Shown piece by piece: positions 23,537-46,490 of a DNA stretch of 57,624 bases. The notes beneath the pieces were generated by a model that was given only the letters and a program-made list of their open reading frames with translations, was not told the origin of the DNA and made no database searches. This DNA comes from a virus. The translations under genes and the position numbers were made by a program. The stretch is from the IMG/VR virus record IMGVR_UViG_3300045588_000058, positions 1 to 57,624 of that record. The stretch is one strand, 5' to 3'. Position 1 is the first letter of the stretch. The number at the start of each line of letters is the position of its first letter.

Positions 23537-25033
23537 TTAATTGTATTTGTTTAGCCAGCCTCCTGGTTGTGGTTTATTGTAATTGGTAAAGTTAGTCAAT
23601 TGATCTAATTGTTGCAAAGTTTTTTGATCTTGTTGGTTCACACCATTCTTAGCCATAGGATATTCTGTCACCTTCTTACCCTTGAACTTATAATTCTTTC
23701 CTGGTTTCATTAGTTTTGTATCTCCTGTATCAGATATTCCTAATAAAGGTTCATACACTCCTTCCATTGTTATATCAGTAGATCCTATCTCAACAACCTT
23801 TCCCCAGTTATCAGGATTCCAATATCCCATATCATCTTTGATAACTGAACCATCTCTACTAATAGTCTTTGGTTTCCAATCTAATCCTTGTTGATAGTAT
23901 TGCATTTCTTTACCATTCTGTGCAGAAGCATCTGTCTTATCAGTTTGATTTCTACGTGGTCCTTTACTAGGAATACTTCCTGTGCGTGCGTATGAGAAAC
24001 CTGTAGCTCCAGGGAATGATCCTCCTGTTTGTGCTTCAGGAACATAATTAACTGGATAGACAGAACCACCCATTTGATAATGAGGAATCGCAGTTCTTGT
24101 ATTATAAGGACTAGGTGCTATGTTTGGTAAATCTCCATTCTCAGGATAGTATTTATATTTACTTTCTGTTCCTCCAAAGTTTTGATTTACTGTGTCAGTT
24201 ACATCATAATATTTAGGTGTTCTAACAGGAACTCTAATATTTGGATCTGCTTCTATATCATTATCTGGATAAACTAATCCTGCTGGTTGTAAATTATTTT
24301 GTATTGGTAAATCCAAAAGAGTTTCTATGTTTTGCTTAGGTTTAGCATAAACAGGACTAACTGCATAACCATCATAATACTCTGAAATTGGTTTTATTTT
24401 TGCATCATACACATCAGGAGATGTATAAAAATTAATATTTTCATCTTTTATTCCAAGACTTTTGTAATAATTTATTACTTTTTTTGATTTATTTATTACA
24501 TGTTTATCTTCTCCACCACTTATTGCTCTTTTTTCAAAACCAGGAACTGTTGTTGCAGTATATGCATTTATATTAGGATTTTGTTTTGAAAAAGCAGCAT
24601 ACTCTTTATATGCTTTTCCAGAATAATTACCTTTTTTTGTTTCATTTAATTGTTTATTATATAATACTTTTTCTTTAGCTAGCAGTTTTTCTATTTTTTC
24701 ATAATCCATTTTTAAAGGTTTATAAGAACTTAAATTAGTGATACCTAAGTCTTTTTGTTTATTTGATGTAATAGGATTATTTTTTTGAAATTGATAAGCT
24801 TTATAAAGTCTTAAACTATCTTGATAAGCTTTATATCTAGGATCGTTTTTTGATTTTACATATATAGGTTTCTTTGTTCCACCTTGAGCAATAGGAATCT
24901 CTCCTCCTTCTTGAAACTGTCCTCCCCATGCAGGAGAACTATTTCTTCCTACATTGCTGTATCCATCTCCTTGAAATCCTTCAGGAGCAGATACTTCATA
25001 ATCATTATAATTATCTAACCACTTATTTTTCAT
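23537..25033 (-). CDS. Glycine-motif cargo/tail protein, 498 aa
   Basis: A 498-aa protein with the same recurring short motif as the following 1061-aa protein: QEGGEIPIAQGG near the N-terminus, then YQMGGSV, AQTGGSF, SAQNGKEM and MAKNGVN. Its ends are alike: KWLDNYNDY at the start and GGWLNKYN at the stop. The middle is Lys/Tyr-rich and without clear domains. Its start overlaps the end of the GIY-YIG gene by 11 bases, and its stop is one base from the next start, so the genes are translated from one message. No function can be assigned beyond a likely virion cargo or tail protein inferred from position. Confidence 0.6.
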   Translation of the reverse strand: MKNKWLDNYNDYEVSAPEGFQGDGYSNVGRNSSPAWGGQFQEGGEIPIAQGGTKKPIYVKSKNDPRYKAYQDSLRLYKAYQFQKNNPITSNKQKDLGITNLSSYKPLKMDYEKIEKLLAKEKVLYNKQLNETKKGNYSGKAYKEYAAFSKQNPNINAYTATTVPGFEKRAISGGEDKHVINKSKKVINYYKSLGIKDENINFYTSPDVYDAKIKPISEYYDGYAVSPVYAKPKQNIETLLDLPIQNNLQPAGLVYPDNDIEADPNIRVPVRTPKYYDVTDTVNQNFGGTESKYKYYPENGDLPNIAPSPYNTRTAIPHYQMGGSVYPVNYVPEAQTGGSFPGATGFSYARTGSIPSKGPRRNQTDKTDASAQNGKEMQYYQQGLDWKPKTISRDGSVIKDDMGYWNPDNWGKVVEIGSTDITMEGVYEPLLGISDTGDTKLMKPGKNYKFKGKKVTEYPMAKNGVNQQDQKTLQQLDQLTNFTNYNKPQPGGWLNKYN

Positions 25034-25655
25034 AATTTATATCTTTATATTTCCATATAAATCCTCCACATGTTTTTGTAATTTTCTTTAATGCAAAAGT
25101 TATATTACTAGTACTTAAATTTAAACTAATAGAAGCAGATTTACCTGACTCCCACTCTTTTATAAATATACCATCTAAACTATATTGTAAAATAGATTTA
25201 TATTTTCCTTTTGCAGCTTTATGTTTATGCTCTTCAGAATGTTTTTTACCTAGTTTGCTTTGTTTAAATAGTTGTTTATATTCTTCTGACCATTTTCTAC
25301 CAGTTGCTTTGGTTCTAATTTTATCTCTAGTCTCTAGCGATGTTAACGATACATTATTAGGATGTGTTGGTTTTAAATTATATCCATACTTTCTATTATG
25401 GACATTTAATAATGTAGCCCAATAGTGTTCTTCAGAATACAAATACTCTTCTTTACATTCTTCTAAAATTTCAAATAAAAAATTTTCTTCACCATACATA
25501 TCCCAAGCTCTTTGTAAATATGTATTATTATGTATTCCTGTTTTTAACTGTCTTTTATGAAGCCCCCATCTAACATTAAAAGTTCTTTTAGTACAACCTA
25601 CATATATATGTCTAGTTATAATATTAGTTATGGTATATACACCTATACTGTTCAT
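25023..25655 (-). CDS. GIY-YIG homing endonuclease with NUMOD-type DNA-binding tail
   Basis: The 210-aa protein opens with a GIY-YIG nuclease domain: GVYTI at residues 5-9, YVGCT at about 18-22, arginines further on, and the acidic residue within SEEHYW near residue 75. The C-terminal half has two short repeats of the NUMOD3 type (WSEEYKQ and GKKHSEEHKHKAAKG). A NUMOD1/IENR1-like segment then ends with CGGFIWKYKD. Such free-standing enzymes cut a specific site and spread by repair. It overlaps the stop of the muzzle C-terminal gene (TAATG) and the start of the next gene, so it has been inserted tightly into the tail operon, next to the muzzle gene that is itself broken. It may be a selfish element only. 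Confidence 0.92.
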   Translation of the reverse strand: MNSIGVYTITNIITRHIYVGCTKRTFNVRWGLHKRQLKTGIHNNTYLQRAWDMYGEENFLFEILEECKEEYLYSEEHYWATLLNVHNRKYGYNLKPTHPNNVSLTSLETRDKIRTKATGRKWSEEYKQLFKQSKLGKKHSEEHKHKAAKGKYKSILQYSLDGIFIKEWESGKSASISLNLSTSNITFALKKITKTCGGFIWKYKDINYEK

Positions 25656-26521
25656 TACTTATAACTTATTTGGGCTGGAGCTGTCAAAAACTGGCTCACC
25701 AAATGAACGTTTGATTGATCGTCTAAAATATGTCTCACTTTTAATTCTTTTGCTCTTAGAGGAGCTTTCTTAAAGCTTCTTGAACCATAATCCATATTGT
25801 CTTGATTAACTACCTTATCAATAGAAAGACTCTCGCATGATGTAAGAAATAATGGAACTTGAGAACTTTTTTGAAGAGCCCAGAATGTATTATATTGATA
25901 GAAGTTATCACTCTTAGTATATGTGATTGTTTTGCTATCTGTATTGAATATCGGATATTGCATATATGCTCTCATATTATTAAGAGGTTTTGCTACTAAG
26001 TTTATTACTCCTGAACTTTGTTGATTGTTATAAAGAATTACTTTATTAAACCATTTATTGTTTGTTTCTATTCTTGAGTTATAACTAAACACACCATCAG
26101 GTATATTTAGATATTCATATGCTTTTGTATAATCTTTTACATTCTGAAGAATTTCATCTTGAAATTGATAAGCAAATGGATATTCAATAATATATGGTGC
26201 TATGTTTCCATAGTAAGAGTTATACAATTGTATATTAGTTAAATGTCTCCATATACATCCTGTTACAGTTTGTACTAATTTAATATTTGCATACTCTTGC
26301 TCAGTAATATCTTTTAAAGATAATGTTTTTTCTGATTTACATGTACCAGTAGATTTTATTGTAACCATAGTTACATTGTCATTTACAATATAACTTATTC
26401 CTCTTGTTAAAACTTTTTTAGTAACTCCCTCTGCTATTACATTCCCAAACTGATCAAAGATTAAGAATGGACCTGCAGTAGGGTTTACTTGAGTTAATTT
26501 TATTGTTATTGTTTTTGACAT
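25655..26521 (-). CDS. Muzzle/tail-hub C-terminal domain as a separate gene, with swapped N-terminal module
   Basis: Residues 1-72 form a module also found at the N-terminus of the 169-aa protein at 35310-35819 (GPF at 18-20, GVTKKVLTRG, IKSTGTC). From about residue 89 (GCIWRHLTN, then IIEYPFAYQFQDEILQ, NKWFNKVILYNNQQSSG, RSFKKAPLRAKELKVRHILD and the end APAQISYK) the sequence is what I recall as the C-terminal region of crAss-like muzzle/tail-stabilisation proteins. There it is normally fused to the body of that protein. Here the body is the preceding 1724-aa gene. The start lies 9 bases after that gene's double stop. I read this as one ancestral gene split in two, with both products probably assembling in the tail tip. 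A homology search would settle it. Confidence 0.75.
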   Translation of the reverse strand: MSKTITIKLTQVNPTAGPFLIFDQFGNVIAEGVTKKVLTRGISYIVNDNVTMVTIKSTGTCKSEKTLSLKDITEQEYANIKLVQTVTGCIWRHLTNIQLYNSYYGNIAPYIIEYPFAYQFQDEILQNVKDYTKAYEYLNIPDGVFSYNSRIETNNKWFNKVILYNNQQSSGVINLVAKPLNNMRAYMQYPIFNTDSKTITYTKSDNFYQYNTFWALQKSSQVPLFLTSCESLSIDKVVNQDNMDYGSRSFKKAPLRAKELKVRHILDDQSNVHLVSQFLTAPAQISYK

Positions 26522-26530
26522 ATTAATTTA

Positions 26531-29500
26531 TTAACAAGGTCCGTTATTAATTAATGTTACTTCAGGAGGTGTAACTACACTTCCACTTCGTGCACAGAAT
26601 GTTTGAGTTGAAGGTCCTCCTTCTACATTACCAATGTTTACAGATTGTGGATTTTCTGAACAATCAGTATATGTTACTGTTACAACACCCACTGTTGTTT
26701 TACTTATTGTATATGAAAAACAATTTAATGTTGTACTAGTTGTAGTGGTAGTTGTAACACATATTGCTGTTTCAGTAATTATTCCTGATACAACATGATA
26801 AACTTCTGTAGTAGTGTTTGCACTTTCATCTGTAAAATACCAACCATCTGCTATTGTTGTACAATCTGTTGTACCATTATTAACATATATAATTTGTCCA
26901 ACTGTTAAACTTACAGCACTTATATTAATTAAAGTATATTCATAACCTACATTTGTTGTAATATAAGCAATTGCTGCACATGCATCAACTTGACTTCCTG
27001 TAGATACTACTGTTGATGGAGGGGCTATTATATTATATCCTGTAATAAATTGATAGTTGTTCACGGTGTTTGGTCTTTGGCATGGTGGTGGTACAGTTAT
27101 AACTCCTGTTCCTACAAGAGTACAATCAGTTAATATTACTTCTCCAGCTAATGTACAATCTAATGGAATTTCTGTAGTAGTAGTAGTGGTAGTTGAAGAT
27201 GTACTACTAGTAGTAGTAGTAGTTGTTGTACTTGGTGTAGGAATTAATTCTCCTACAACAAAATCAAAATCATCACAACATCCATTAATACCAGAATAAA
27301 AGAAATTGTTTTCTGCTATATACCAATTAGGAATATAACTATGAAAACTTATCCATGTTTTTGTATTTACATTAAATGAAAGTGTCCAAGATTTATTGCA
27401 AAAGTATTCAGAATCTTTTAAATCAACAACTGTTGTTAATACTAAGCTATTAATAACTTCCTCTATATAAAATTCTTTTGTTGTAGAATTGTATTTAATA
27501 TCTTTATTTAATGGAATGTAATCTAGTTTACTAATTATAACTCTATCAAATTTGCTATCATATACAGCATGTAAACCTACTCCATTAAAATGATTATCTG
27601 TATCTACATTTGGAAACCATCTTAATATTTCAAAAGCTAAATGGTCTGTAAAGAATCTATTCATTCCAGAACCAAATGCAGATAAATCGTCTACTTGTGT
27701 TCCTTGTATAAGAAACACTTGTCCTCTTTTAGCATCTACAGTTATTTGTCCTTGAGGAATCTTCAATAACATTTTGTTTTGACTTCCTACATACCCAAGA
27801 TCTGTTTCAGCAAAATCAATAGGAGGTGCTCCTTTAAACATATTAGGATTACCTACATATGCAGCTTGAGGATTACTTGTATCAATTGTTAATAGATTAT
27901 TATACAATAATGATTTGTTTTCAAATCTAGCAAGAATTGCTCTATTTTGTATACCATCTAATGATATAAGATTACCATAGTTTTGGGGAAAATCAAAATA
28001 AGAAATTGCTCTATATGTCAACCAGCTATTAACTCTATTATCTGCATCTGTATTTTGACTATCAGAGTATATTGCTCTAAATGGATAATTTGTATAACAA
28101 GCTTTTCCATCCCAATCAGGAGGAAGGTGTGTAAATGTATTTTCTTTATTTTGTTTAGAAAATGTTACATTATATGTATATGTATTATCATTAGCAATAC
28201 TTACAAAATCTTCTTGTAACCAATCATCAGGAATACTTGTAGATACATGTGGCCAAAAGTCTCCTTCTTTATTATTAAATGCTTGCCTAAGATCTGTATT
28301 GTAAGAACTTTCACAATAAAAATTAGGAATACCATATGCAAACAAATAAAAATATCCATCATAGAATGTTCTATTAGGATTAGTATCTGCTTTAGCAGTT
28401 GATGGTATTAACTCTTGACTATTTTTACAATCAAATTCATGTGCTTTATAAGAAATAATATTTGAAAGTTCTCCTGAATCATTTCCACTATAATTGCTTA
28501 ATATAGATCTAGCAGAATGCCAATATTTAGGATAAGCTATATTTCCTATTTCATCATAGAATACATCTGAATCATCAGGAGCATTAACTCTATTATCTAT
28601 AAAGAATGGAAGTTTAGTTTTAAATGCAAAACGAGAAATAAATGTATCTCCTCCAAATATTGTAGCACTTCCTGTAGTTTTAATATTTTTTTGAAACCCT
28701 GTATCAATTGTATCATAAGAATATATTTGTCCCCATTGATTTACAAATGTATTTTTCAATGAAGCATAGTATGATAAAACTTGTATATCTTTTTCTTTTG
28801 CTGGTGTAGCGCATGAACTACCACCACTTATAGTCATTCTAGATTTATCCGTTATTCCTAAAGCAGAAACACTAACACTATTACTAGGAAATGGAAGTGG
28901 AGATAAATATTGTTCAGAATTGTTTAATTCATTAGTTTTTATAAATACAGAAGTTTCTCTTTGATAGTTATTTATAGGAATATTATCATCTCCTACTGCT
29001 TGAACTCCAGGTATTAAATATTTTGCTAAATCAATAGTTCGTTGTTTAATACCTAGATCATTTGGTATAAATGTATTATAATCATAACTAGCAATTGAAT
29101 TATATGAATATGCATAATTCTTTCTAGTTATACCATTTATATATATCTGTAAATATGCTTGATATGCTGTAAACATAGCAGTGGCACTAAAATCACTAGT
29201 TATATTACCTAATCTACTAGAGCTATCAAGAGCATCTTCTTGTGCTTCTTTTGTAAGTAATCTATATTTAGCATTACTTTTAACTTGTACAAAATGTGCT
29301 TTACCAGCACCAAACATTACATTTTCTAATTTAAGTACATCTCCTAAAAAAGGTTGTCCAAAAGAAGTTTCTGGAGAATTAAATATTTGTCTATATCCAA
29401 GATTAGTATCAGTATCAATTGATGGTTGTGGTATAGGAATTTTACATTGATTTGCTGCACGTACATTTTGATCAGGTAAAGCTTGAATAGTTACTCCACA

Positions 29501-31705
29501 TACATCCTTTGTACTAATTTTAATAGGTTCTGTTCCAACTTTTACATGAATAATATAACTAGAATTAGTTGGCGATCCTTCTACCCATTCTTGTTGTTTT
29601 TCTCCAAACTCATCTGTCCATTCTGCTGTCCATCCAGCACATGCTTGAATAACTGTACCAGTAGAAGCAATTCTCCAAACATTATAATTACCATATGCAG
29701 ATGTACCTTTACCAGATATAATAGTTGGTTTTGCTATAGCACAAATTGAATGAGCACCTAAATCATTTAATTTTTCTTTTATTGATTTATTAGAATTACA
29801 ACTAATATATTCTATTTCAGCATATCCATCTATTCCAAATTCTGTAATGGTTACAACAAATGGTTCACATAATTGTGTCCATGCATTATTAGATGCATTT
29901 AAAAATGGATCTTCACCTAAGTCATTATATGGATAATTAGGAAAATAAAAATCTTGATCTTCTCTCGAATATTTATTTACATTTCTAAGTATACCTTTTG
30001 CTACAATAGATTTATTTGTTCCTCTATCTCCTCTTAATATTTTAAATCCTATTATAGATGATTTTTCTTCTTGCGTTAAATTAGAAGATAATATTAATGA
30101 TTTTACTTGATCAACATCTATTTTTACACCAATAGGAAATACAGAATTATTTTGCATCACCATAGAGGATGCTCCTGTGTACAATACAGTTGATTCTGTT
30201 ATTGGAGAAATTAATACATCTGGAAACTTATGATGTCTAATAGGTTCACCTGCAAGGTCTCCCCATACATTAACATTACAAGGATAAGTTTCTTCTGACT
30301 CCCAATATGCAAAGTTTCCATAATTAAATGCAGTGGCATTACCAATGTTAGTTGTTGGATCTACTGGAGATGCACCAATTAAAGAAGCAGTGTTATATAT
30401 TTTCCAATATGGTGCACTTGTTCCTTCACCAATAAAATCTTGATTTGTATTAGGAACACTAACTAAATCACTACTTACTGATTGTCTACCAGGAATATGA
30501 AAACCATCTGTTTGTTTTCCATTATCTAAAAGAAATGCAATTTCAAATGCATACACTTCATCTCTAAGATACCCTCTTAAATTAGTAGCATTTAATTCAT
30601 TTGAATAATCTTCATTAGCAGGTAATTTATATGTTTCCCATTTAAGATTTATTTGTGATGCTATTGATTGATAATTAATTCTATCTACAGATATAAGACC
30701 ATCCCATATAAGAACATCTTGAGCTGTAGTTAAATCTTCCGCTATATCATAATAAGGAAACTTTTCAAATATATCATTAATAGATAGTTTTATAGCAGAA
30801 ACATCTTGTCCTGTATAAGTAATTTGTTTTGACACATTGTCAATAAAGTATGTACCTACTAATTCTACTGAACTAATATCATTAATAGTTTTAATTACAG
30901 CAAGATTAAAATATTGAAATCCTCCTGTAACATCAAGATTATCAACGTTTATAATAATTGATTTACCTACATTATAGTTATAATTAACTGTTGTTATATT
31001 TATATCTGCAATAGGTGTAGGGTTTGTAATAGAATAATATGATGTGTACGGATTACCAGATGCATCAGAGTATTGTGCAGCAAATTGATATGTTCCTGCA
31101 AGCAATGCTCCTCCTGTAGTAATATCTACTATAGCAAGATCAGGAATATTAAAATTAGGTTGTATTTTTAATTGATTACAATCTAATATATCTGTATAAA
31201 CAGGATCACAAAGCTCTGAGGTAGGTGTTAATAAATATGGAATATTATTAATATCCAAATATCTTCTTTGATTAAAACCATCTGTCCAATATATTTCTGT
31301 TGTACAATTTGTAATTTTATGTACAGTTTTATGTATAGGATGATCAATATTAAAATTAAGACAAGAACTATTAACTAGTTTATGATATATACAATCGTTA
31401 TTATCCATATATCCTATCTCTGAACCACCATCTAGTGGGTTAGTAATAAAGAATATATGTTTGTTTTTTTCGTTAATAAAATGCGTTCCTATTAACACAT
31501 AGCTTTTTGGAAATGTTAAACAAAGTTCATTACCTTGTTCATTTTGATAATTAACAGAACTAGAATCAAAGTTTTCTAAAGCAGCATTTAATGCATAAGT
31601 TAAAGTACCTGATTTAACTTGGTTCAAAGTTTGATCCATGTTTAATCCAATATTGGCACTGTTAAATTCTATTTTAATATTTCCTTGTGATTGTTCTTCA
31701 GCCAT
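26531..31705 (-). CDS. Tail hub/muzzle (tail stabilisation) protein with C-terminal poly-Thr modules
   Basis: The 1724-aa protein has a beta-rich body of about 1475 residues. It starts with IKIEFNSANIGLNMDQ and ends with WTLSFNVNTKTWISFHSY and NNFFYSGING (N1474-G1475), features I recall from crAss-like muzzle proteins, the large protein closing the tail tip. Instead of continuing into the usual C-terminal domain, the frame runs into CCDD, a threonine/serine tract (about 1493-1513) and two DCTL motifs (LDCTLAGEV and TDCTLVGTGVITVPPP). Cys-flanked beta modules (GWYFTD...HVVSGIITETAIC) and a second short Thr tract follow before the stop TAA TAA. The missing domain is the next gene. The added region makes this a likely variable surface. 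Confidence 0.8.
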   Translation of the reverse strand: MAEEQSQGNIKIEFNSANIGLNMDQTLNQVKSGTLTYALNAALENFDSSSVNYQNEQGNELCLTFPKSYVLIGTHFINEKNKHIFFITNPLDGGSEIGYMDNNDCIYHKLVNSSCLNFNIDHPIHKTVHKITNCTTEIYWTDGFNQRRYLDINNIPYLLTPTSELCDPVYTDILDCNQLKIQPNFNIPDLAIVDITTGGALLAGTYQFAAQYSDASGNPYTSYYSITNPTPIADINITTVNYNYNVGKSIIINVDNLDVTGGFQYFNLAVIKTINDISSVELVGTYFIDNVSKQITYTGQDVSAIKLSINDIFEKFPYYDIAEDLTTAQDVLIWDGLISVDRINYQSIASQINLKWETYKLPANEDYSNELNATNLRGYLRDEVYAFEIAFLLDNGKQTDGFHIPGRQSVSSDLVSVPNTNQDFIGEGTSAPYWKIYNTASLIGASPVDPTTNIGNATAFNYGNFAYWESEETYPCNVNVWGDLAGEPIRHHKFPDVLISPITESTVLYTGASSMVMQNNSVFPIGVKIDVDQVKSLILSSNLTQEEKSSIIGFKILRGDRGTNKSIVAKGILRNVNKYSREDQDFYFPNYPYNDLGEDPFLNASNNAWTQLCEPFVVTITEFGIDGYAEIEYISCNSNKSIKEKLNDLGAHSICAIAKPTIISGKGTSAYGNYNVWRIASTGTVIQACAGWTAEWTDEFGEKQQEWVEGSPTNSSYIIHVKVGTEPIKISTKDVCGVTIQALPDQNVRAANQCKIPIPQPSIDTDTNLGYRQIFNSPETSFGQPFLGDVLKLENVMFGAGKAHFVQVKSNAKYRLLTKEAQEDALDSSSRLGNITSDFSATAMFTAYQAYLQIYINGITRKNYAYSYNSIASYDYNTFIPNDLGIKQRTIDLAKYLIPGVQAVGDDNIPINNYQRETSVFIKTNELNNSEQYLSPLPFPSNSVSVSALGITDKSRMTISGGSSCATPAKEKDIQVLSYYASLKNTFVNQWGQIYSYDTIDTGFQKNIKTTGSATIFGGDTFISRFAFKTKLPFFIDNRVNAPDDSDVFYDEIGNIAYPKYWHSARSILSNYSGNDSGELSNIISYKAHEFDCKNSQELIPSTAKADTNPNRTFYDGYFYLFAYGIPNFYCESSYNTDLRQAFNNKEGDFWPHVSTSIPDDWLQEDFVSIANDNTYTYNVTFSKQNKENTFTHLPPDWDGKACYTNYPFRAIYSDSQNTDADNRVNSWLTYRAISYFDFPQNYGNLISLDGIQNRAILARFENKSLLYNNLLTIDTSNPQAAYVGNPNMFKGAPPIDFAETDLGYVGSQNKMLLKIPQGQITVDAKRGQVFLIQGTQVDDLSAFGSGMNRFFTDHLAFEILRWFPNVDTDNHFNGVGLHAVYDSKFDRVIISKLDYIPLNKDIKYNSTTKEFYIEEVINSLVLTTVVDLKDSEYFCNKSWTLSFNVNTKTWISFHSYIPNWYIAENNFFYSGINGCCDDFDFVVGELIPTPSTTTTTTTSSTSSTTTTTTTEIPLDCTLAGEVILTDCTLVGTGVITVPPPCQRPNTVNNYQFITGYNIIAPPSTVVSTGSQVDACAAIAYITTNVGYEYTLINISAVSLTVGQIIYVNNGTTDCTTIADGWYFTDESANTTTEVYHVVSGIITETAICVTTTTTTSTTLNCFSYTISKTTVGVVTVTYTDCSENPQSVNIGNVEGGPSTQTFCARSGSVVTPPEVTLINNGPC

Positions 31706-31713
31706 GATATATA

Positions 31714-32688
31714 TTAATTGTTACGTCTTCTACCATATCTATTAGTACGGTTAGGAAGTTCATACATATTAAATCTATTAAGATCATTTTTTATTCTTCT
31801 TTGCTTTTCTTCAGCAGTTTGTTTTTTAATCTCAATACTAGCCATAATAAAAGCTTCTTCATATAATTGCTTATGATACATTAACTTCTGTTGTAACTGA
31901 TTAAAAGTTTCATCATTAGTTTGATTTGTAAGCATCTCAAACACTTTAAACTTAAGGAATGCTTCTACATATTCTCTTATACGATAGTTATCAGGAATCA
32001 ATTGGTTTCCTATTTCATCATACTCTGTAGCATAAAATATTAAATGTACAACACCATTTCTGAAGTTAGTTACAAATTTATTATCTCGTATATCAAATGA
32101 ATCAATACTAGAACTACCAGGTGTAAAATTATTTACAGGAATAGGCTGATTATTAAAATCCCAGTTATTTGTATATTCAACATCACAATGTTGTTTTGCA
32201 GATATATTTCCAGGTTTAAGTAAATAATTATGAGTAAATCCTCTTGTAACGCTATTGTTTGTTTTATACACAGCTTGTACAAGCACAGGCATACATGTAC
32301 CCTCACATCCTGGATCTTGACAACCAACATTATTACAGGCAGTTCCTGCAATAGTCAATGGACTTACTTGTATTGTAGTTGCACTTGATGCTTGTGAATA
32401 AAATGAATTAGCTGATTGATAGGGATAAGCTGCTACTTCTGTAGTCATCCATGCTTCTCTTACAGCATAAAAGTTATCAGGAAGTCTAGCTTGGAAGTCT
32501 TCTACAAAAAGAATCTCATCAGTAATTACATAAGTTGTTCTTCCTAACTTTTTTAAAGCTTTGTCTAAATAAGTAGGGAATAATAAATCATCTACAGCAG
32601 CAGTATCGAAATAACTTTTAAGTTCTTCTTTAACAGTTGAGTAAACAGGTTCTGGGCTTATAAAAGCGTATTTATAGTAGTAGCTCAT
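31714..32688 (-). CDS. Tail tubular/ring protein of the neck
   Basis: A 324-aa protein beginning MSYYYKYAFISPEPVYSTVK. It combines an N-terminal alpha-helical part, a beta-rich centre with a Cys-rich loop (CNNVGCQDPGCEGTC) and a long basic C-terminal helix ending in TNRYGRRRNN. The pattern EEL...FP.YL.KALKKLG and the position directly before the muzzle gene suit the T7 gp11-like tail tubular proteins of crAss-like phages, which form a ring between portal and tail tip. The Cys loop may bind a metal or form disulfides. It starts 8 bases before the muzzle gene. The assignment rests on position and remembered family features. Confidence 0.65.
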   Translation of the reverse strand: MSYYYKYAFISPEPVYSTVKEELKSYFDTAAVDDLLFPTYLDKALKKLGRTTYVITDEILFVEDFQARLPDNFYAVREAWMTTEVAAYPYQSANSFYSQASSATTIQVSPLTIAGTACNNVGCQDPGCEGTCMPVLVQAVYKTNNSVTRGFTHNYLLKPGNISAKQHCDVEYTNNWDFNNQPIPVNNFTPGSSSIDSFDIRDNKFVTNFRNGVVHLIFYATEYDEIGNQLIPDNYRIREYVEAFLKFKVFEMLTNQTNDETFNQLQQKLMYHKQLYEEAFIMASIEIKKQTAEEKQRRIKNDLNRFNMYELPNRTNRYGRRRNN

Positions 32689-35309: not shown

Positions 35310-35819
35310 TTATTCTATTGTTGGGCAAGTTACAGCACTACCAATAAATTCTGTTCCGCCCCATAGTCTTGCATATTGACCATCGCAATACCAAAATCCT
35401 CCTGGTGCAAAAAGAGTCTCATTAATATCTTGGTACAGACCAGTAGATATATACCAAATTGGATCATCTAGATAATAGTAGACTTCATTACCTGGATCAC
35501 CATAAAAAGCACACGCCTGTGCGGCACTATCATTTGATACTGATAAGGTTATACCTGCTTCGGGTGGAGCAGTTGTAGTGGTTGTAGTGGTGGTGGTTGG
35601 ACTAACTAATGGAATATCTATATAGTTTACACAATTTCCTGTAGACTTTACTCTAATTGTAGTAGTAAAATCTAAAACTGCGGAAGAAGAATATCCTGCA
35701 AGCAATGCAGATTTACTTACTCCTGTAGCAAATGCTGATACATAGCCATCAAAATTTGTATAAAGATCAAAAGGACCTGAATCTGTCCCTGCTGTTGTTA
35801 ATGTTATTAATACTGTCAT
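35310..35819 (-). CDS. Small modular virion protein with poly-Thr linker
   Basis: The 169-aa protein has three parts. Residues 1-72 form a beta module (GPF at 15-17, ATGVSKSALLAGY, IRVKSTGNC) that is clearly related to the N-terminus of the muzzle C-terminal protein at 25655-26521. Residues 75-83 are a run of nine threonines. Residues 89-169 form a Cys-flanked module (QACAFYGD, IWYISTGLYQDINE, FWYCDGQYARLWGG) similar in pattern to the modules at the end of the 1724-aa muzzle. It is the last gene of the fibre cluster and is followed by a terminator. I infer a virion surface or adhesion accessory protein. Confidence 0.65.
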   Translation of the reverse strand: MTVLITLTTAGTDSGPFDLYTNFDGYVSAFATGVSKSALLAGYSSSAVLDFTTTIRVKSTGNCVNYIDIPLVSPTTTTTTTTTAPPEAGITLSVSNDSAAQACAFYGDPGNEVYYYLDDPIWYISTGLYQDINETLFAPGGFWYCDGQYARLWGGTEFIGSAVTCPTIE

Positions 35820-35850: not shown

Positions 35851-36174
35851 TTATTGTTCAATAGCTGTTCCAGCAAGTGTACAATCTAAAACAACAGGTG
35901 TTGTTGTAGTAGTAGTTGTTGGTGTTACAGTAGTTGTACTTGTTGTTGTGCTTGTACTACTACTTGTTGTAGTTGTAGTAGTAGGTATTACAGTTGTTGT
36001 AGTTGTAGAAGTTGATGCACTTGTTGATGTTGTTGTTGTTAAAGGTAATGTAGTGGTAGTGGTAGTAGTTGTTGGTGGAGGAATTGTTATTACTCCTGTA
36101 CCAATAAGTGTACAATCAAATATAGGAATTGGTGTTTTTGATCCCCCGTAAATGTGCCAAGATATCTGATTCAT
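35851..36174 (-). CDS. Threonine-tract protein with DCTL blocks at both ends
   Basis: More than half of this 107-aa protein is threonine and serine runs interrupted by proline and valine. FDCTLIGTGVITIPPP lies near the N-terminus and LDCTLAGTAIEQ at the C-terminus. The same two blocks occur in the 1724-aa muzzle protein around its own Thr tract but in the opposite order. The start codon overlaps the stop of the 638-aa fibre gene (TAATG), supporting real translation. The opposite strand shows long valine-rich frames here that are only shadows of the ACT/ACA repeats. The function is unknown. It may be a linker cassette or donor sequence. Confidence 0.6.
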   Translation of the reverse strand: MNQISWHIYGGSKTPIPIFDCTLIGTGVITIPPPTTTTTTTTLPLTTTTSTSASTSTTTTTVIPTTTTTTSSSTSTTTSTTTVTPTTTTTTTPVVLDCTLAGTAIEQ

Positions 36175-38090
36175 TATAATCCTACTGTTATATATTCGTT
36201 TAAAACTCCCGTATTGGTTATTGTGTGCGATAGCTTTTCAGCCATAGTGGTTGCATCGTTGTTTATCAACACTATTGAACCCCCAAGGGCATATGTCATT
36301 GTCACACCTGCTGATGTTACAAAACTGCAATTCCATCCTAATGATAAACCATTTGGTAAAGTCACCGTGCAAGATGCTGTAAGTAGTATAACAGTACCAT
36401 TATCACTTTCAGCAAGAGTTATGTTTGTGGCTATTTTTCTAACGGTAATAGCTATGTTTGCTTTTGCGTCTAATTGACTTTTAATAACAACTTGATTTGC
36501 TGTTGTTGAGGCACTTGCACTAATTGTTCCGTTTACTTGCAATCTGTCTACATCATTATCTGTTGTAGTTCCTAATAATAAGTTACCATAAATAATAGCT
36601 GTACGTAATGTACTTATATTTCCTATTACGGTAGTATTTGAACCTAAACCAACTGCTGCATTCCCTATAACTATTGAATTGGTATTAGTTATTCCAAGAG
36701 TACTTGTTCCTTGTCCAATTGCAATATTACTACCTCCAGATGTATTATTTTGTAATGCGTTTAATCCAATTGCAACATTATTATTACCTGTTGCATTTAA
36801 TAATGCATTTGAGCCGATTGCTACATTTCCACTACCAAGTATATTGTTTTGTAATGCAAAATAGCCAAATGCAGCATTGTTATTACCATTGATATTCACA
36901 GACATAGAACCACGACCAACTGCTGTATTATTAAAACCTATTGTATTTGCTTTTAAGGATTCTCTACCAATTGCTGTATTGTTATTGCCAATTGTGTTTG
37001 AATTTAATGCTTCAGCACCTACTGCAACACCTGCAGAACCTGTTGTATTTGAATATAATGCTCCTTGACCAATAGCAACAAGTGAAGATGCATTTGTTGT
37101 TGTAAATAAAGCTTGAGACCCAATAGCAACATTATTATTACCATTTATGTTATTTCTTAATGCACCATTACCCATAAGTACACTAGTAATACTACCACCT
37201 CTACCTACATTAATTCCCTGTACTACTAAATCACTACTGAAGTCTTTAATTCCTGCAATAGTTTCATTGCCTGTTTTGTGAACAACAGTAGAATCAATTG
37301 CATAAGTATTATTATCTATTAACCCATTTGCTTTTAAAAATTGAGTGGATGTACCTCCTGGTATTCTTAATGATGCAGCAATAAAATCGCAATTTGCAGT
37401 AATTTGTCCAATTTGATCATCTATTATCAATGAAGTGTTCGCTACCTCTAAGGTTAAAAAATCTGAATTTGCAGATATTACATCAACTCTTATTGAATCA
37501 TTAAAAGTTTTAATTCCTGCAATAGTTTCATTTCCTGTTTTATGAACTAAGTTTTCATCTAATGCCATTGTACCTGTAGCATCAGGTAAAGTATATTTTC
37601 TATTTACGGTTAAATTTTGTGGGTAAAAGTTAGCAGTAATAAGATTTGTCTTAAAAATTAAAATTCCTTGTCCAGTTTCAGTATAAAATTGAGTATTGTT
37701 ATTATAATCTCTAATAGTGAATGTGCTATCAGATGCAGTTATTGATGCATAACCATCATTAGCACTATCTAATATATTAATAGATCCTGAATTAAATCTT
37801 GGAGTCGAAACGAAACTTTTTATACCATCAATAGTTTCATTTCCTGTCTTGTGAACTAAGTTTGCATCATTTATATCAATTTTCACCACAAGCCCTCCAT
37901 CAGTAGTATTATCTTTATACCAATACTCTTGATTAGCAATGTTTACAGTCAATCCTATACTTCTAATTCCTACTGGTAATAAACTATTTACCTGTGCTAT
38001 ACTTGTGTATGGTATTGTGCCATTTAAATACTTTTCATCTAATGATTCTGTACTTAAAACTTTTATTGAATATGGTAATTCTAAACTCAT
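36174..38090 (-). CDS. Trimeric fibre/adhesin with YadA-like head repeats
   Basis: The 638-aa protein has three copies of a fibre motif, VHKTGNETIxGIKxF (near residues 78, 182 and 269), typical of phage fibre shafts. It then has a long array of about 14-residue repeats of the YadA/Hia head type (NNNVAIGSQAL, NNTAIGRESL, NNAAFGYFAL, SNIAIGQGT) over about residues 310-490. The C-terminal 100 residues are beta-rich and end EYITVGL. This architecture predicts a trimeric, elongated fibre that binds a cell surface or glycan. Its start overlaps the upstream fibre gene (ATGA) and its stop overlaps the poly-Thr gene. Head or tail attachment cannot be decided. Confidence 0.8.
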   Translation of the reverse strand: MSLELPYSIKVLSTESLDEKYLNGTIPYTSIAQVNSLLPVGIRSIGLTVNIANQEYWYKDNTTDGGLVVKIDINDANLVHKTGNETIDGIKSFVSTPRFNSGSINILDSANDGYASITASDSTFTIRDYNNNTQFYTETGQGILIFKTNLITANFYPQNLTVNRKYTLPDATGTMALDENLVHKTGNETIAGIKTFNDSIRVDVISANSDFLTLEVANTSLIIDDQIGQITANCDFIAASLRIPGGTSTQFLKANGLIDNNTYAIDSTVVHKTGNETIAGIKDFSSDLVVQGINVGRGGSITSVLMGNGALRNNINGNNNVAIGSQALFTTTNASSLVAIGQGALYSNTTGSAGVAVGAEALNSNTIGNNNTAIGRESLKANTIGFNNTAVGRGSMSVNINGNNNAAFGYFALQNNILGSGNVAIGSNALLNATGNNNVAIGLNALQNNTSGGSNIAIGQGTSTLGITNTNSIVIGNAAVGLGSNTTVIGNISTLRTAIIYGNLLLGTTTDNDVDRLQVNGTISASASTTANQVVIKSQLDAKANIAITVRKIATNITLAESDNGTVILLTASCTVTLPNGLSLGWNCSFVTSAGVTMTYALGGSIVLINNDATTMAEKLSHTITNTGVLNEYITVGL

Positions 38091-39149: not shown

Positions 39150-40223
39150 TTAAGGGATATAAATTATATAATAAACAGAAATAACTGGTTGAATATTTGA
39201 GTGTGCTAATCCTCCGCCTTCAGAAGATATAGTTACTGGGTGTGTATGAGATCCTGCAGATGTAGTAGGAACAGTTCCAAAATATCCAGCAGGTTCTCCA
39301 CCAGAACCATCATTACTTCCAGATTCAATATATCCTAATACAGTATGAGTATGTTCTCCTGCAGCAATAGTAGCTCCCACGTGTGTATGAAGAGGCATTT
39401 GTGTAGCATTTAATGTAACTTGATTAGCTCCAAATGTAGTAATACCTTTTGTATTATAATCAGGATTACCATTAAGTCCTGGTTGAGTTTGGGCTGGGAA
39501 TCCTGCCCCAGACATTGCTGTAACTCCTACAGGAACTCTGCCTCTAAGATCTGGTGTTGTGTTTAATCCATTACATAAAAATATTCTAGCCCAATCTCCT
39601 AATCCTGCTCCTGTACCATCAAATTTTCCTGTTAAATCTCCATAAAAAGGAAGAATAGAATAAGGAACCATTTTAGAACTAATTAATGTAGAAGTTCCAA
39701 TACTAGCTAAATAAGCAGCAATATAACTATCAATAGTATCTACAGATACATAATTAGTTTCAAGGTCTAAAGCTAATGCTGTAACATCTAATTGTAATGC
39801 ACAAAGTTTATTAATAGTAGCTTGAACAATTGCATGTGTATCTGAAGAAGCTGTAACTCCTGTTAAACATCCAATTGTATAATCAGCATTTAATGCAGCA
39901 AGTGTACCATCAATAACATCAACTTGTTCTTGAAGATCACAAGCAGCTTGTATAAGAGCTTTTGATATATCTACAATAGTTAAGTCTCCACATGTAGGAA
40001 GATATTTCTGTACAAGAGTACATATATCAACATCACTAACATTTATTTTTATTCCTGTACCATTTAGTGCAGATAAAAGAAATGTAGACAATGCTTGTTC
40101 TACAAATGATAATGTATCACCTGTTTGAATTCCTAAACCAGGAATAGCTATTCCTGTGTATTTGACACATCTGTCAGAAACAATTTCTGTACATCCGTTA
40201 AAACAATTTTGACAATCGCTCAT
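39150..40223 (-). CDS. Tail fibre with phage tail-collar domain
   Basis: The 357-aa protein starts with a Cys-rich segment (MSDCQNCFNGCTEIVSDRC) and helical repeats. It ends with a tail-collar/microcystin-dependent-protein type domain (about residues 200-357). That domain has GDWARIFLCNG, PDLRGRVPVGV, the metal-binding HTH pairs (LHTHVG, EHTHTV, SHTHPV) and NIQPVISVYYIIYIP at the end. Such domains form the tips of trimeric fibres with His-coordinated iron. It is in the middle of the fibre cluster, 20 bases from the upstream gene and 4 bases from the downstream one. Receptor binding is the likely role. Confidence 0.85.
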   Translation of the reverse strand: MSDCQNCFNGCTEIVSDRCVKYTGIAIPGLGIQTGDTLSFVEQALSTFLLSALNGTGIKINVSDVDICTLVQKYLPTCGDLTIVDISKALIQAACDLQEQVDVIDGTLAALNADYTIGCLTGVTASSDTHAIVQATINKLCALQLDVTALALDLETNYVSVDTIDSYIAAYLASIGTSTLISSKMVPYSILPFYGDLTGKFDGTGAGLGDWARIFLCNGLNTTPDLRGRVPVGVTAMSGAGFPAQTQPGLNGNPDYNTKGITTFGANQVTLNATQMPLHTHVGATIAAGEHTHTVLGYIESGSNDGSGGEPAGYFGTVPTTSAGSHTHPVTISSEGGGLAHSNIQPVISVYYIIYIP

Positions 40224-40242: not shown

Positions 40243-40866
40243 TTATACTACTGTTGTTGTAGTGGTTGTTGGACAAATTACTTCTTCACAAGTATCTTTT
40301 CCACTAAGATTTGATATATTATTTGGAGATACATCTGCATAACATGCTGTGTAAGTTTCAATTAACATTTTAAATCCTTGATAATAATACCATTTTCCAA
40401 TAGTCAATGGTTCTGAATTTGAAACACTACCTCCACCTGCTCGTGTACAACTGTCACAATAATATAAATCTATATTATAATACCATGAAGTGCAATCTTC
40501 TGGTGCTATAGTTGTTGTAGTTGTTGTTGTAGTAGGACAAGGAGTAGTAGTGGTAGTTGTTGTCACTCTCACTGTAGGTGTATACATAGGTTTAGACTCA
40601 CAACCTAAAGTTAATAATATAACTTTACTAGCTATCTTAGATATAGAATAGTGGTAAACATAATTTGGATTAATGTTTTTATACATTAATATTCTTTTAT
40701 ATGCTATTAATTGCAACATATCAGTAGCAGGTACAGATTGATTTAACATAAATGATATATTATTATACAAACTATTACCAAGTTCTGCTAACTTACAATC
40801 TATTCTTTTAAGTAATTCTGGAATGTTTACACATTCTGGACAATTAGTTAATCTAGTATATAACAT
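40243..40866 (-). CDS. Virion-associated protein with two poly-Thr runs
   Basis: I start this 207-aa protein at 40866, one base after the stop of the small Cys-rich gene, rather than at a Met 13 codons upstream that would overlap it. The N-terminal half is helical (MLYTRLTNCPECVNIPELLKRIDC...). Threonine runs flank PCP around residues 110-125. A Cys-rich module follows (EDCTSWYYN, YYCDSCTRAGG, IGKWYYYQGFKMLIETYTAC), then CEEVICP and a final Thr run ending at the stop. The Thr runs and Cys modules resemble those at 35310-36174 and in the muzzle protein, so it belongs to the same set of modular surface proteins. Confidence 0.65.
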   Translation of the reverse strand: MLYTRLTNCPECVNIPELLKRIDCKLAELGNSLYNNISFMLNQSVPATDMLQLIAYKRILMYKNINPNYVYHYSISKIASKVILLTLGCESKPMYTPTVRVTTTTTTTPCPTTTTTTTTIAPEDCTSWYYNIDLYYCDSCTRAGGGSVSNSEPLTIGKWYYYQGFKMLIETYTACYADVSPNNISNLSGKDTCEEVICPTTTTTTVV

Positions 40867-41581: not shown

Positions 41582-41613
41582 GGTTATTTAATAATATTTA
41601 CTATTCTGTATTC

Positions 41614-42765
41614 TTAAGGAATTTGAGTAGTAGAAGAAGTTGTTGTTGTTGTAGGAGCACCAGAAGTAGTAGTAGTTGTAGTGATACAATCATTATTATC
41701 AACTAAAGTTCCTAAAGCAGCTTCCAATACAGTTTCAATTGCAGCAGCAATACCACTTGTTGAAGCATTTGGTGCAGAAATAATCACTGTACTATCTTCT
41801 TGGATATAATCACCCCATTGGTAAGCAGATTTATCAAGTTCATTGAATTTGATATAATAGCTATCGTAAGTTACTCCATTAGATACCCAAGACTCAAAGT
41901 TCTCATTGTATCCATTCATTCTGTAAAGGTGTTTCAAATACCCAGCTTGGTAGCTGTAGAAATTTTTCTCTAGTTGAGCAATTTCTCCAGATTGTCCTGA
42001 AGCATAAGAAGAACGTTGTGTAATTGCAGAGTTAGCAACAATGTTACAAGAATCAGCAACAATAAAGTCAGCAGTAGTAGCTGGACCAGAATATACAAAA
42101 GTTCTAAAAGACATTCTGTCATATTCAAAAGGGAAAGCAGCAATATCACAAGGTTGACCATATTTAGTTAATGGTTTTCCTGTAATACGTAAAATTGTAC
42201 CACCTATATTTTCAAATGTATAGAATGTGTTGAAACTAATGTTATCAGGATTAATACCAGGAGCTTGTGCAGTCAATTTACCAATCAATTGGTTAATCAA
42301 TGCATTTGTATCAACATCTACACATGGATCAGATCCACAATCACAACAAGGTGCTTGTACAGTTACTGAACGTGTAAATCCATTGAAATACAATGTATTA
42401 ATGTAAGAAGAACTAGCACGTAGTGTTAGTGTTAGTGTATCACCACATTGAACAGAAAAATCAGTTACATCAGTAATTTGATTAGCAGCAGTTGGACAAC
42501 CAATTACTTTGTACCATTCAGATACATTGGATCCATTTGAAGCAATTCTGTCAGATCTTTTTGATCCTTGTAAATACGTGTTAACTCTACCTTGAGCAAC
42601 ATAGAAATAAGGCTTAGCAGCAATATTAGCAGCAGTTGCTAATGAGTAATCGCTTCTAAAAATACCCACTGTACCTGCAGATAGGTCTTGGGTTGAACCA
42701 GAGCTAGGAAGAGCAGTCTGTCCTACTGGAACCACGAATAACGTGGTTAATGAAAAATCAGCCAT
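41614..42765 (-). CDS. Capsid/neck-associated structural protein with C-terminal Thr tail
   Basis: The 383-aa protein begins MADFSLTTLFVVPVGQTALP and is beta-rich with a Cys cluster (CCDCGSDPC, about 145). It ends in a threonine-rich tail after DCITTTTTTSGAP. The body looks like a conserved virion protein; an auxiliary capsid or tail-attachment role is possible. The Thr tail is the same kind of tract that joins modules in other genes here, but nothing is attached after it. Codon use is somewhat richer in G and C than its neighbours, like that of the major capsid gene, consistent with high expression. Confidence 0.6.
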   Translation of the reverse strand: MADFSLTTLFVVPVGQTALPSSGSTQDLSAGTVGIFRSDYSLATAANIAAKPYFYVAQGRVNTYLQGSKRSDRIASNGSNVSEWYKVIGCPTAANQITDVTDFSVQCGDTLTLTLRASSSYINTLYFNGFTRSVTVQAPCCDCGSDPCVDVDTNALINQLIGKLTAQAPGINPDNISFNTFYTFENIGGTILRITGKPLTKYGQPCDIAAFPFEYDRMSFRTFVYSGPATTADFIVADSCNIVANSAITQRSSYASGQSGEIAQLEKNFYSYQAGYLKHLYRMNGYNENFESWVSNGVTYDSYYIKFNELDKSAYQWGDYIQEDSTVIISAPNASTSGIAAAIETVLEAALGTLVDNNDCITTTTTTSGAPTTTTTSSTTQIP

Positions 42766-44915: not shown

Positions 44916-46490
44916 TTAGAATTGTGGCATTTCCTCAATCAACACAGTTCTAGACAAATCTTCAATAAATACATCACATCTGTCTTTCATCCAGATTTCG
45001 TATCCTGGGAATTTGTTAGCACTTGACATACCTTGAGATTTTGCAAATCCTAAGTGATGACGAGTTCCATCAATATAACCCCAAGTCATAGAAGGAGCAC
45101 CTTTCATACGTACTTCTCTAATGTTATTCACCATACTACCATCACCCATTGGAGAAACATCAAACACCATAAATACAGGAGTAGATTTTTTGTTTTGTCC
45201 AAATTCTAGGTTAGATTGTGGTAAATCCAATTCTTTCAAGTGAATAAGTTCAACACGACCAGTCTCACGTGTAACCATTGCATCAAATGCAAAGTTGTAA
45301 GTAATGTGTTGTCCTTCACCTTGCATATATCTGTTTCCAGAATCTGCCATAAATGTAAGACCACTGTTAAGAGCATCTGTTTTCAAAGCTTGTTGGAATA
45401 CATCAAATCCAGCTTCGTTAGTATACATTTTAACACGTCTGTCTTTTACATCCACTCTTCTGTAGAACAAATCTCCAAAAACTGAACGAATCAAGTTAGC
45501 AGAAAATTCTCCACGGTTATATTGTACCAAGTTACCGTTGTTACGCATTCTGTGATAAACACCAGCAGATGTACGTTTAACTTCTTGTTTAGACCCACCA
45601 GATTTAACTGTACCTGGTTTAGCCCAAATCATACGTTTAACTTTAAGTTCAAGCATAGATTTACGCATCCAGAATTCAATAAACGGTTCCCATTTAACAT
45701 CATTACGAGTAAGTGGTAATTGGTTACGTCTTTGTGGAGCATATACCAAAATATCAAGAGGTTTACCTGAAGCATCTCTCATCATTTTATCATCAGCCCA
45801 TTCAGTGATTTTGTGCTCATAACCATATGCAGAACCCAAAGATTCAAACATTGTGATTTGCTCACCCAATCTTGGAAGACCCAATAAATCTTGATCGAAT
45901 TCTCCAATTGCAGCATCAACTAATTCTAGTTCAATACCATGTTGTAAAAACAAAGGATTAACAAAGTCAACAGTTGGGTTATCAGTTACAAGTGTAAATG
46001 AATACAAATAACCTGCATTCCATGGCAATGGATCTTTGATCACGTAGAAACGTGGACCATATTGACGTGTACCTACAGAAATGATAGCATTTTTAGAAAA
46101 TTCATTAGTATCCAATACTAATTGAAATTCTTGACCATCAATACCAACTTTACCAGAACCAGTAATACCTTCAATGATATCTGTAGTAGAGCTAGGAACA
46201 TCAATAATTTTTGGGAATTTGTAAGGAACTGCTACTTGCCATTTCCATGCATCACTATTATTATCTATGTAATAAGGTGTGCTTTTGTTGATCATGTCTA
46301 AGAAGTCATTACTGTACAACGAGCTCTGGGTATAAAGACTGATGATTTTTTTATCATAGTCCGCAGGCTCAGTAGAGTGAAAACTCTCTAAGTGATTTGA
46401 GTCTGTAAGTTTACCTACAGCACGTTTGTCCATAGACGCTACTCGTGCATAAGTAAAACCAGTTAACCCAGGGATTGTTTGAATACTCAT
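44916..46490 (-). CDS. Major capsid protein
   Basis: The 524-aa protein has the expected length and position (directly after a scaffold-like gene and portal) for the HK97-fold major capsid protein of crAss-like phages. Its sequence is mixed alpha/beta without enzyme motifs. Stretches such as GTRQYGPRFYVIKDP and PVFMVFDVSPMGDG suit the fold. Codon use is richer in C and G at third positions than in neighbouring genes, as expected for the most abundant protein. The start MSIQTIPGLTGFTYARVAS has an A/T-rich leader without Shine-Dalgarno, usual for Bacteroidota. It is followed by the structured RNA and the tRNA. Confidence 0.85.
   Translation of the reverse strand: MSIQTIPGLTGFTYARVASMDKRAVGKLTDSNHLESFHSTEPADYDKKIISLYTQSSLYSNDFLDMINKSTPYYIDNNSDAWKWQVAVPYKFPKIIDVPSSTTDIIEGITGSGKVGIDGQEFQLVLDTNEFSKNAIISVGTRQYGPRFYVIKDPLPWNAGYLYSFTLVTDNPTVDFVNPLFLQHGIELELVDAAIGEFDQDLLGLPRLGEQITMFESLGSAYGYEHKITEWADDKMMRDASGKPLDILVYAPQRRNQLPLTRNDVKWEPFIEFWMRKSMLELKVKRMIWAKPGTVKSGGSKQEVKRTSAGVYHRMRNNGNLVQYNRGEFSANLIRSVFGDLFYRRVDVKDRRVKMYTNEAGFDVFQQALKTDALNSGLTFMADSGNRYMQGEGQHITYNFAFDAMVTRETGRVELIHLKELDLPQSNLEFGQNKKSTPVFMVFDVSPMGDGSMVNNIREVRMKGAPSMTWGYIDGTRHHLGFAKSQGMSSANKFPGYEIWMKDRCDVFIEDLSRTVLIEEMPQF

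Follow-up and report, generated by a model that had tools for sequence, protein, structure and literature searches.

How many polypeptides make up the muzzle of a crAss-like phage is the question raised by the window, that is, the virus record IMGVR_UViG_3300045588_000058 analysed over its whole length of 57,624 bases, which carries a crAss-like structural block. The muzzle is the tail-tip gatekeeper, proposed to act as the gate of crAss-like virions. In the window it is encoded by two genes and not as a single polypeptide: a 1724-residue protein that, judged from its profile matches, corresponds to a crAss-type muzzle over residues 1-1475, and a 288-residue protein that, by the same kind of evidence, is the missing C-terminus from Trp91 onward. 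The crAss-like group concerned, represented by metagenomic sequence only, would build its tail tip from two and sometimes three proteins, with the break as a hotspot for modules. The pieces of the two genes all lie on the minus strand:

26531-31705 (-): open reading frame (ORF) of 1724 amino acids, first muzzle chain
27281-31705 (-): muzzle body, residues 1-1475 of the 1724-residue protein, gp44-type without the last ~200 residues (crAss_MUZ, phrog_37948, phrog_15100)
27275-27280 (-): Cys1476-Cys1477, just past the break loop (YSGING-CC-DD)
26534-27274 (-): variable tail of the first chain, residues 1478-1724, with Thr tracts, DCTL blocks and Cys-containing stretches
26522-26533 (-): TAA stop, second in-frame TAA and ATTAAT, ahead of the second start
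25655-26521 (-): ORF of 288 amino acids, second muzzle chain
26306-26521 (-): GPF module, the N-terminus of the 288-residue protein, with Cys61 at 26339-26341
26255-26257 (-): Cys89, two residues ahead of the Trp at which muzzle sequence begins again (TGC-I-WRHL)
25655-26251 (-): C-terminal domain of the muzzle (residues 91-288, plus stop codon), the detached end of the muzzle

The first chain matches Pfam crAss_MUZ (PF25731; E value 2.8e-36) and phrog_37948 (E 2e-117). Along PHROG 15100, a profile of 1783 positions, its best match covers positions 12-421, and residues 89-281 of the second chain match positions 1589-1776 (E 2.4e-10). The proposal of an earlier note on this DNA, that the 288-residue protein is the direct continuation of the muzzle, is borne out by this order and by Leptolyngbya phage Lbo-JY46, where tblastn places both queries on consecutive stretches, 18 nucleotides apart, of one 1654-residue protein. 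Both window queries also match some of the same named phages, in order; Cellulophaga phi4:1 and csAssE-Sib were unreached by the 288-residue query in tblastn at 1e-5, yet are alignable with it. The protein aligns with the C-termini of unsplit muzzles, and the matches of both chains to muzzle proteins are contiguous and ordered. It was not seen as a stand-alone gene beside an intact muzzle: in 20 unsplit loci the domain lies within the muzzle chain, with no second copy more than 900 bases away within the stretch examined. Pfam crAss_MUZ matched L004 (L numbers denote the loci surveyed below) as well as the window, and gave no match at E 1 in the unsplit loci L001, L002 and L003. PF25729 (crAss_MUZ_C) matched two of 12 members, the window's C-terminal domain not being among them. 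Searches of PDB sequences with phmmer and hmmsearch gave no match, and a scan with the Lbo-JY46 query found no relatives.

The end of the muzzle-like body had been correctly placed at NNFFYSGING, which occupies residues 1466-1475 of the first chain, and it is indeed followed by a Thr tract, by two DCTL blocks and by numerous cysteines. Of the 72-residue module said to have been gained by the second chain, the core of 72 residues does match a repeated module; the addition itself runs further, to about residue 84-90. The note's reading of homology, order, break position and added modules is supported by these comparisons. Beyond it, the split is common to a large clade and was reversed at least once, and the family of the N-terminal module includes free-standing genes.

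The survey comprised 247 records, window included, several loci being the same contig repeated. Viral contigs were scanned with three queries, two of which were split proteins, and the best 80 of 405, 413 and 462 matches, respectively, were kept, so that the sample leans to close relatives. The muzzle is split in 206 records, fused in 20 and incomplete in 21, the last including phiCrAss001 itself (L166), which was too distant for the tblastn step used. Removal of near-copies left a non-redundant split set of 101 loci. A scan of genome contigs found no relative, and no host is therefore proposed; nor did tblastn reveal a close cultured relative of the split clade in the phage collection searched. 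Four loci (L027, L083, L094 and L184) carry further muzzle stops 241-746 codons upstream of the break, which may be real breaks or sequencing errors.

At the break, the DNA of the window reads CCT TGT TAA TAA ATT AAT ATG, with tandem in-frame stops and then the new start. The 20 unsplit loci read straight through with 4-19 residues at this point, in agreement with the earlier placement of the break at a loop of relatives. In gp44 of phiCrAss001 the break maps to the turn FYAFKDGK/MWEQF, a DG hairpin at about residues 1233-1238, the body side being placed by eye. As IG2 of gp44 spans residues 318-1021 (PMC10172136, available part), the break falls after IG2, and the hairpin would belong to the C-terminal propeller or ring-joining part of gp44. 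The first chain ends in TAA in 99 of the 101 non-redundant split loci and in TGA in two. Extra ORFs lie between the halves in 16 of them; in the remaining 85 the second start codon lies -80 to +24 nucleotides from the first stop, in phase 0, 1 or 2 in 18, 40 and 27 loci, respectively. Since all three phases occur, neither readthrough nor a fixed frameshift explains the split. The interval between the halves ranges from 315 nucleotides to about 4 kilobases (kb).

The preferred history, as read from trees of the muzzle, would be a single fission after L174 branched off, followed by re-fusion in L175. In the more careful tree of full-length bodies, for which 43 rows were picked by hand, L184 was dropped and 42 were used, fused L174 is sister to the split clade (support 96/88) and fused L175 is nested in a 15-row clade (100/100). 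In an approximately unbiased (AU) test on the same 42 rows, forcing a clade of split rows only was rejected, at a modest p-AU of 0.031. A quicker tree, for which similarity filtering brought 217 rows down to 116 (fused loci: 15 of 20 kept; L004 and L167 not passed), groups the 101 split rows with L174 and L175 in one clade and places the other 13 fused rows outside. The junction of L175 reads YSGLNDCDGFTSTQQSATSCMWRHL; unlike the other 19 fused loci, it keeps cysteine on each side, and it therefore looks like a deletion scar.

A GPF profile, built from the N-terminus of the 288-residue family, also finds positions 35310-35819 of the window and ORFs in many relatives. Among the 16 loci with extra ORFs in the break, 13 have at least one ORF starting with the module, as judged from printed N-termini, and a fourteenth is L085, where the module precedes the chosen ATG within one open frame; extra GPF genes are accordingly present in the break of 14 of the 101 loci, L202 having three in a row. 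One cysteine is common to all 133 GPF modules of the non-redundant set. The 101 modules of muzzle C-terminal genes are parted from the 32 others by one branch of weak support (0.59), a count in which the modules of L066, L202, L228 and L233 were taken as belonging to the C-terminal gene by their coordinates. Searches of whole records detected one GPF gene in L174 and five in L175; nine more distant unsplit records, some of which are fragments, yielded none at E 0.001, and the GPF gene of L107 had no tblastn match at E 0.001 among 50,697 phage records. Because L174 carries a GPF gene and the more distant unsplit records none, these data suggest that the family was acquired before the fission took place, and a copy may then have supplied the new N-terminus, an origin that leans on L174 being primitively unsplit. 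The free-standing gene and the other neighbours of interest in the window are:

35310-35819 (-): free-standing GPF-module gene, 169 amino acids, with module, Thr tract and other sequence (E 1e-9; E 5.8e-36 with a model containing this sequence)
35851-36174 (-): ORF of 107 amino acids with DCTL and Thr elements like those of the muzzle tail, and low-complexity DNA similarity to that tail
31714-32688 (-): CrAss_Ring_1 homologue directly upstream of the muzzle gene (E 1.5e-8), in crAss gene order
25023-25655 (-): GIY-YIG homing endonuclease gene, downstream of the break and not inside it, overlapping the 288-residue gene by one base
44916-46490: Crass_capsid, Pfam match

The muzzle gene thus adjoins that of ring protein 1, as gp44 adjoins gp43, named R1, in phiCrAss001 (PMC10172136, available part). 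A 638-residue protein at 36174-38090, whose gene adjoins the GPF and DCTL genes, has three stretches that match BppL_N, the N-terminal domain of a lower baseplate protein (E 5.6e-22). A weak match to the baseplate domain Gp10_C at 39150-40223 (E 0.00037) is under the curated cut-off.

The tail that the first chain has acquired at the break is hypervariable. Counted from YSG, it measures 17-1012 residues (median 261) and contains TTTT in 98 of the 101 non-redundant loci. Among 146 distinct loci, 144 pairs with body identity of at least 90%, pre-filtered for C-terminal identity above 80%, have median identities of 93% in the body, 95% in the C-terminal domain, 92% in the GPF module and 57% in the tail. 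The pair L156 and L161 is an extreme case, with 92% in the body and 96% in the C-terminal domain, against 41% in the GPF module and 10% in the tail. The Thr-codon-rich, low-complexity DNA of the window's muzzle tail resembles positions 35869-35954, 35929-35983, 36051-36085 and 36073-36118, as well as 40490-40563 and 41612-41682, at 73-82% over 38-92 nucleotides. The last two sites lie in other genes and are possible shared recombination patches, though of low complexity.

In 30 of the 206 split loci (17 of the 101 non-redundant ones), the muzzle is also broken before YFCNKSW (residue 1434 in the window), giving three chains; L038, L039, L040, L041, L046, L053, L060, L068 and L138 are among them. 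In most of these loci the first chain closes at the second break with a Thr tract, which may or may not be accompanied by a further domain. A Thr tract is missing there in L018 and in its copy L096, whose second breaks could be sequencing errors. Fib_succ_major was recognized in eight of 19 sequences scanned, namely 12 second-break tails and seven other ORFs, three of these from the window; the match in L039 has an E value of 1.6e-35. The available part of PMC4159848 describes Fib_succ_major domains as targets of diversity-generating retroelements, and at least in L039 a domain of this Pfam family forms the end of the first muzzle piece at the second break.

Cysteines are matched across the main break. 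Just after the loop and just before WRHL, 172 loci have two and one cysteines, respectively, and 34 have one and none, with no mismatch among 206. In each of the 85 non-redundant (2,1) loci the GPF module adds exactly one cysteine, for a total of four. A disulfide staple between Cys1476/1477 and Cys89/Cys61 might thus hold the chains together; on these counts it is attractive for the (2,1) class and would be less clear-cut for the (1,0) class, in whose 16 non-redundant loci the GPF module has one cysteine in two cases, two in 12 and three in two. Both cysteine traits change four times on the trees, and independent pairs are concordant in four of four cases, or three of three on supported branches, the pairs being too few for sign tests of co-change to reach 0.05.

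As regards the fold, the AlphaFold model of the 288-residue protein has a confident N-terminal β sandwich and a poor C-terminal part (mean predicted local distance difference test score, pLDDT, 62.9). From the strand order in this model, we read the GPF module as a probable immunoglobulin-like sandwich; Foldseek found no PDB match to the model at E 0.001 or better. For the 541 residues at the C-terminal end of the re-fused L175, a model with a pLDDT of 67.1, and below 50 in the hairpin, has the phiCrAss001 muzzle as its top match (7qol_P; E 5e-9, Z 11.6, 303 residues aligned, 5.6 A), with Z 11.3 against 7qok_A. This match concerns the single chain of a relative, the closest stand-in for the window's own two chains.

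The explanation that we consider quite probable is that a fissioned hairpin loop provides a docking site at which surface modules can be added and exchanged, having originated by insertion of a GPF gene and being compatible with reassembly of the two chains. Sequence comparison itself shows the fission, its persistence across the sampled clade, one reversal, the hypervariable tail and the kinship of the GPF modules. The muzzle gene of a crAss-like clade was cut at a β-hairpin turn in its C-terminal part, most likely by a copy of a GPF-module gene, from a family already present elsewhere in the ancestor's genome, landing in the hairpin. The upstream half gained a new, freely evolving C-terminal tail and the downstream half the GPF module as its N-terminus, and the two chains, made from adjacent genes, would come together again as adjoining strands of one fold. 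Because a short loop becomes two free ends, the break could act as a port exchanging Thr-linked tails, further GPF genes and, at the second break, Fib_succ_major domains. The modules might be exposed on the surface and function as adhesins, their likely purpose being variable contact with host surfaces; their addition at the break probably changes how the phage touches its host.

Several observations weigh against this explanation. Both chains, like their assembly, are known here from sequence alone. A C-terminal profile of split and unsplit rows matches gp44 residues 1234-1303 with an hhalign probability of only 65%, despite an E value of 6e-5, and the body stretch nearest the break reaches only E 0.08 against gp44 (967-1150). 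The C-terminal domain alone and the L175 hairpin are both of low confidence in AlphaFold, so that contact across the break is not modelled. Recognizable domains are few: in 77 sequences scanned (60 of the 92 listed tails and 17 of the 18 ORFs between halves), eight Pfam families have one member each, including CBM_56 (1.2e-4) and GBD_T9SS_assoc (0.0012). The quick tree nests L174 inside the split clade beside four split rows (86), and for this reason L174 could be a second re-fusion rather than a primitive unsplit state. The cysteine pattern deviates in 16 of the 101 loci, 14 of which have at least two GPF cysteines, and simple pairing fails there; cysteine parity argues for two disulfides in 85 loci only. 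Finally, the cysteine match in 206 of 206 loci may be hitch-hiking, with the cassette moving as a unit from break to break, because the whole cassettes of L130 and L133 resemble those of another lineage. Thus, L130 compared with L124 gives 89% in the body and 42% in the GPF module, and compared with L152 64% in the GPF module.

A variant to which we give nearly even chances views the reversible fission as a swapping device. A cassette made of the first-chain tail, optional extra GPF genes and the GPF module, with one or two loops opened, would be exchanged from break to break by recombination in the conserved flanks, the chains being held by cysteines that travel along.

Other explanations fare less well. 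Fission by a homing endonuclease that invaded the muzzle gene and afterwards disappeared or relocated downstream is unlikely. A GIY-YIG gene does lie directly downstream of the 288-residue gene in the window, and there are T4-type precedents in Aeh1 nrdA, split by mobE, and the T4 topoisomerase gene, split by mobA (PMC2988022, available part). However, in a survey with the window's GIY-YIG protein as the only query, relatives occurred in 17 of 226 loci with both anchors, never inside the break and in two cases upstream of it; in 16 loci, window included, they lie downstream of the C-terminal domain, at varying distance, and the extra ORFs in the break are mostly GPF genes. Hardly more plausible, and if anything slightly less so, is the idea that the C-terminal half has been recruited to a different role, for instance as a fibre or free protein, and that the muzzle works without it. 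This half has its own gene and its own N-terminal module, but it adjoins the muzzle gene, is again in frame with the body in L175, and is well conserved by the medians above, though those pairs were pre-filtered on it.

The possibility that the stops are recoded, read through or bypassed, one long chain still being made, is very remote: the window's two ORFs share a frame and TAG or TGA is reassigned in some crAss-like phages (PMC10136315, available part), but the window has two successive TAA codons, TAA ends nearly all first chains, the second start takes all three phases and ORFs may intervene. An intron giving a continuous mRNA is just as improbable, for although group I introns are reported to be dense in some crAss-like groups (same source), the interval is coding on both sides, includes a separate start codon together with a conserved module, varies widely in length, and gave no Rfam match at E up to 0.1 between 20000 and 37000 of the window. 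Readthrough, frameshift, intron and an endonuclease in the break are, in sum, rejected or weakened by the tandem TAA, the phases, the Rfam search and the locus survey.

The naturally split gate of this clade, together with its one re-fused member, reveals a loop at which free chain ends and sizeable extra domains are tolerated, and the break marks a site at which these phages may vary their contact with the host. Split and re-fused muzzles also form matched pairs for studies of gate assembly and opening.

A split muzzle is not described in the available parts of the crAss literature found among the open-licence papers searched (PMC10172136, PMC10136315, PMC12386605). Among the closest known systems is gp44 of phiCrAss001 (PDB 7qok, 7qol; PMC10172136), with which the window's muzzle shares its family by Pfam and profile matches, the fold of a relative and the place after ring protein 1. 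In contrast, gp44 is one chain of 1371 residues; at the position of its short DG turn, the gene in the window is interrupted and about 250 and 90 extra residues are present. Similarly, the named relatives Lbo-JY46, phi4:1, csAssE-Sib and Flavobacterium FpV4 have unsplit full-length muzzles with 6-15 loop residues at the break point and no GPF module in the stretches searched. Split genes have been described in other phages, namely Aeh1 nrdA, the T4 topoisomerase gene and gene 43 of phages 44RR and 25 (PMC2988022, available part). As in those cases, one ancestral chain would be made as two that reassemble; the cases in that source are enzymes split by endonucleases or by an untranslated insert, whereas the muzzle is part of the virion and its break is occupied by coding modules that can be exchanged.

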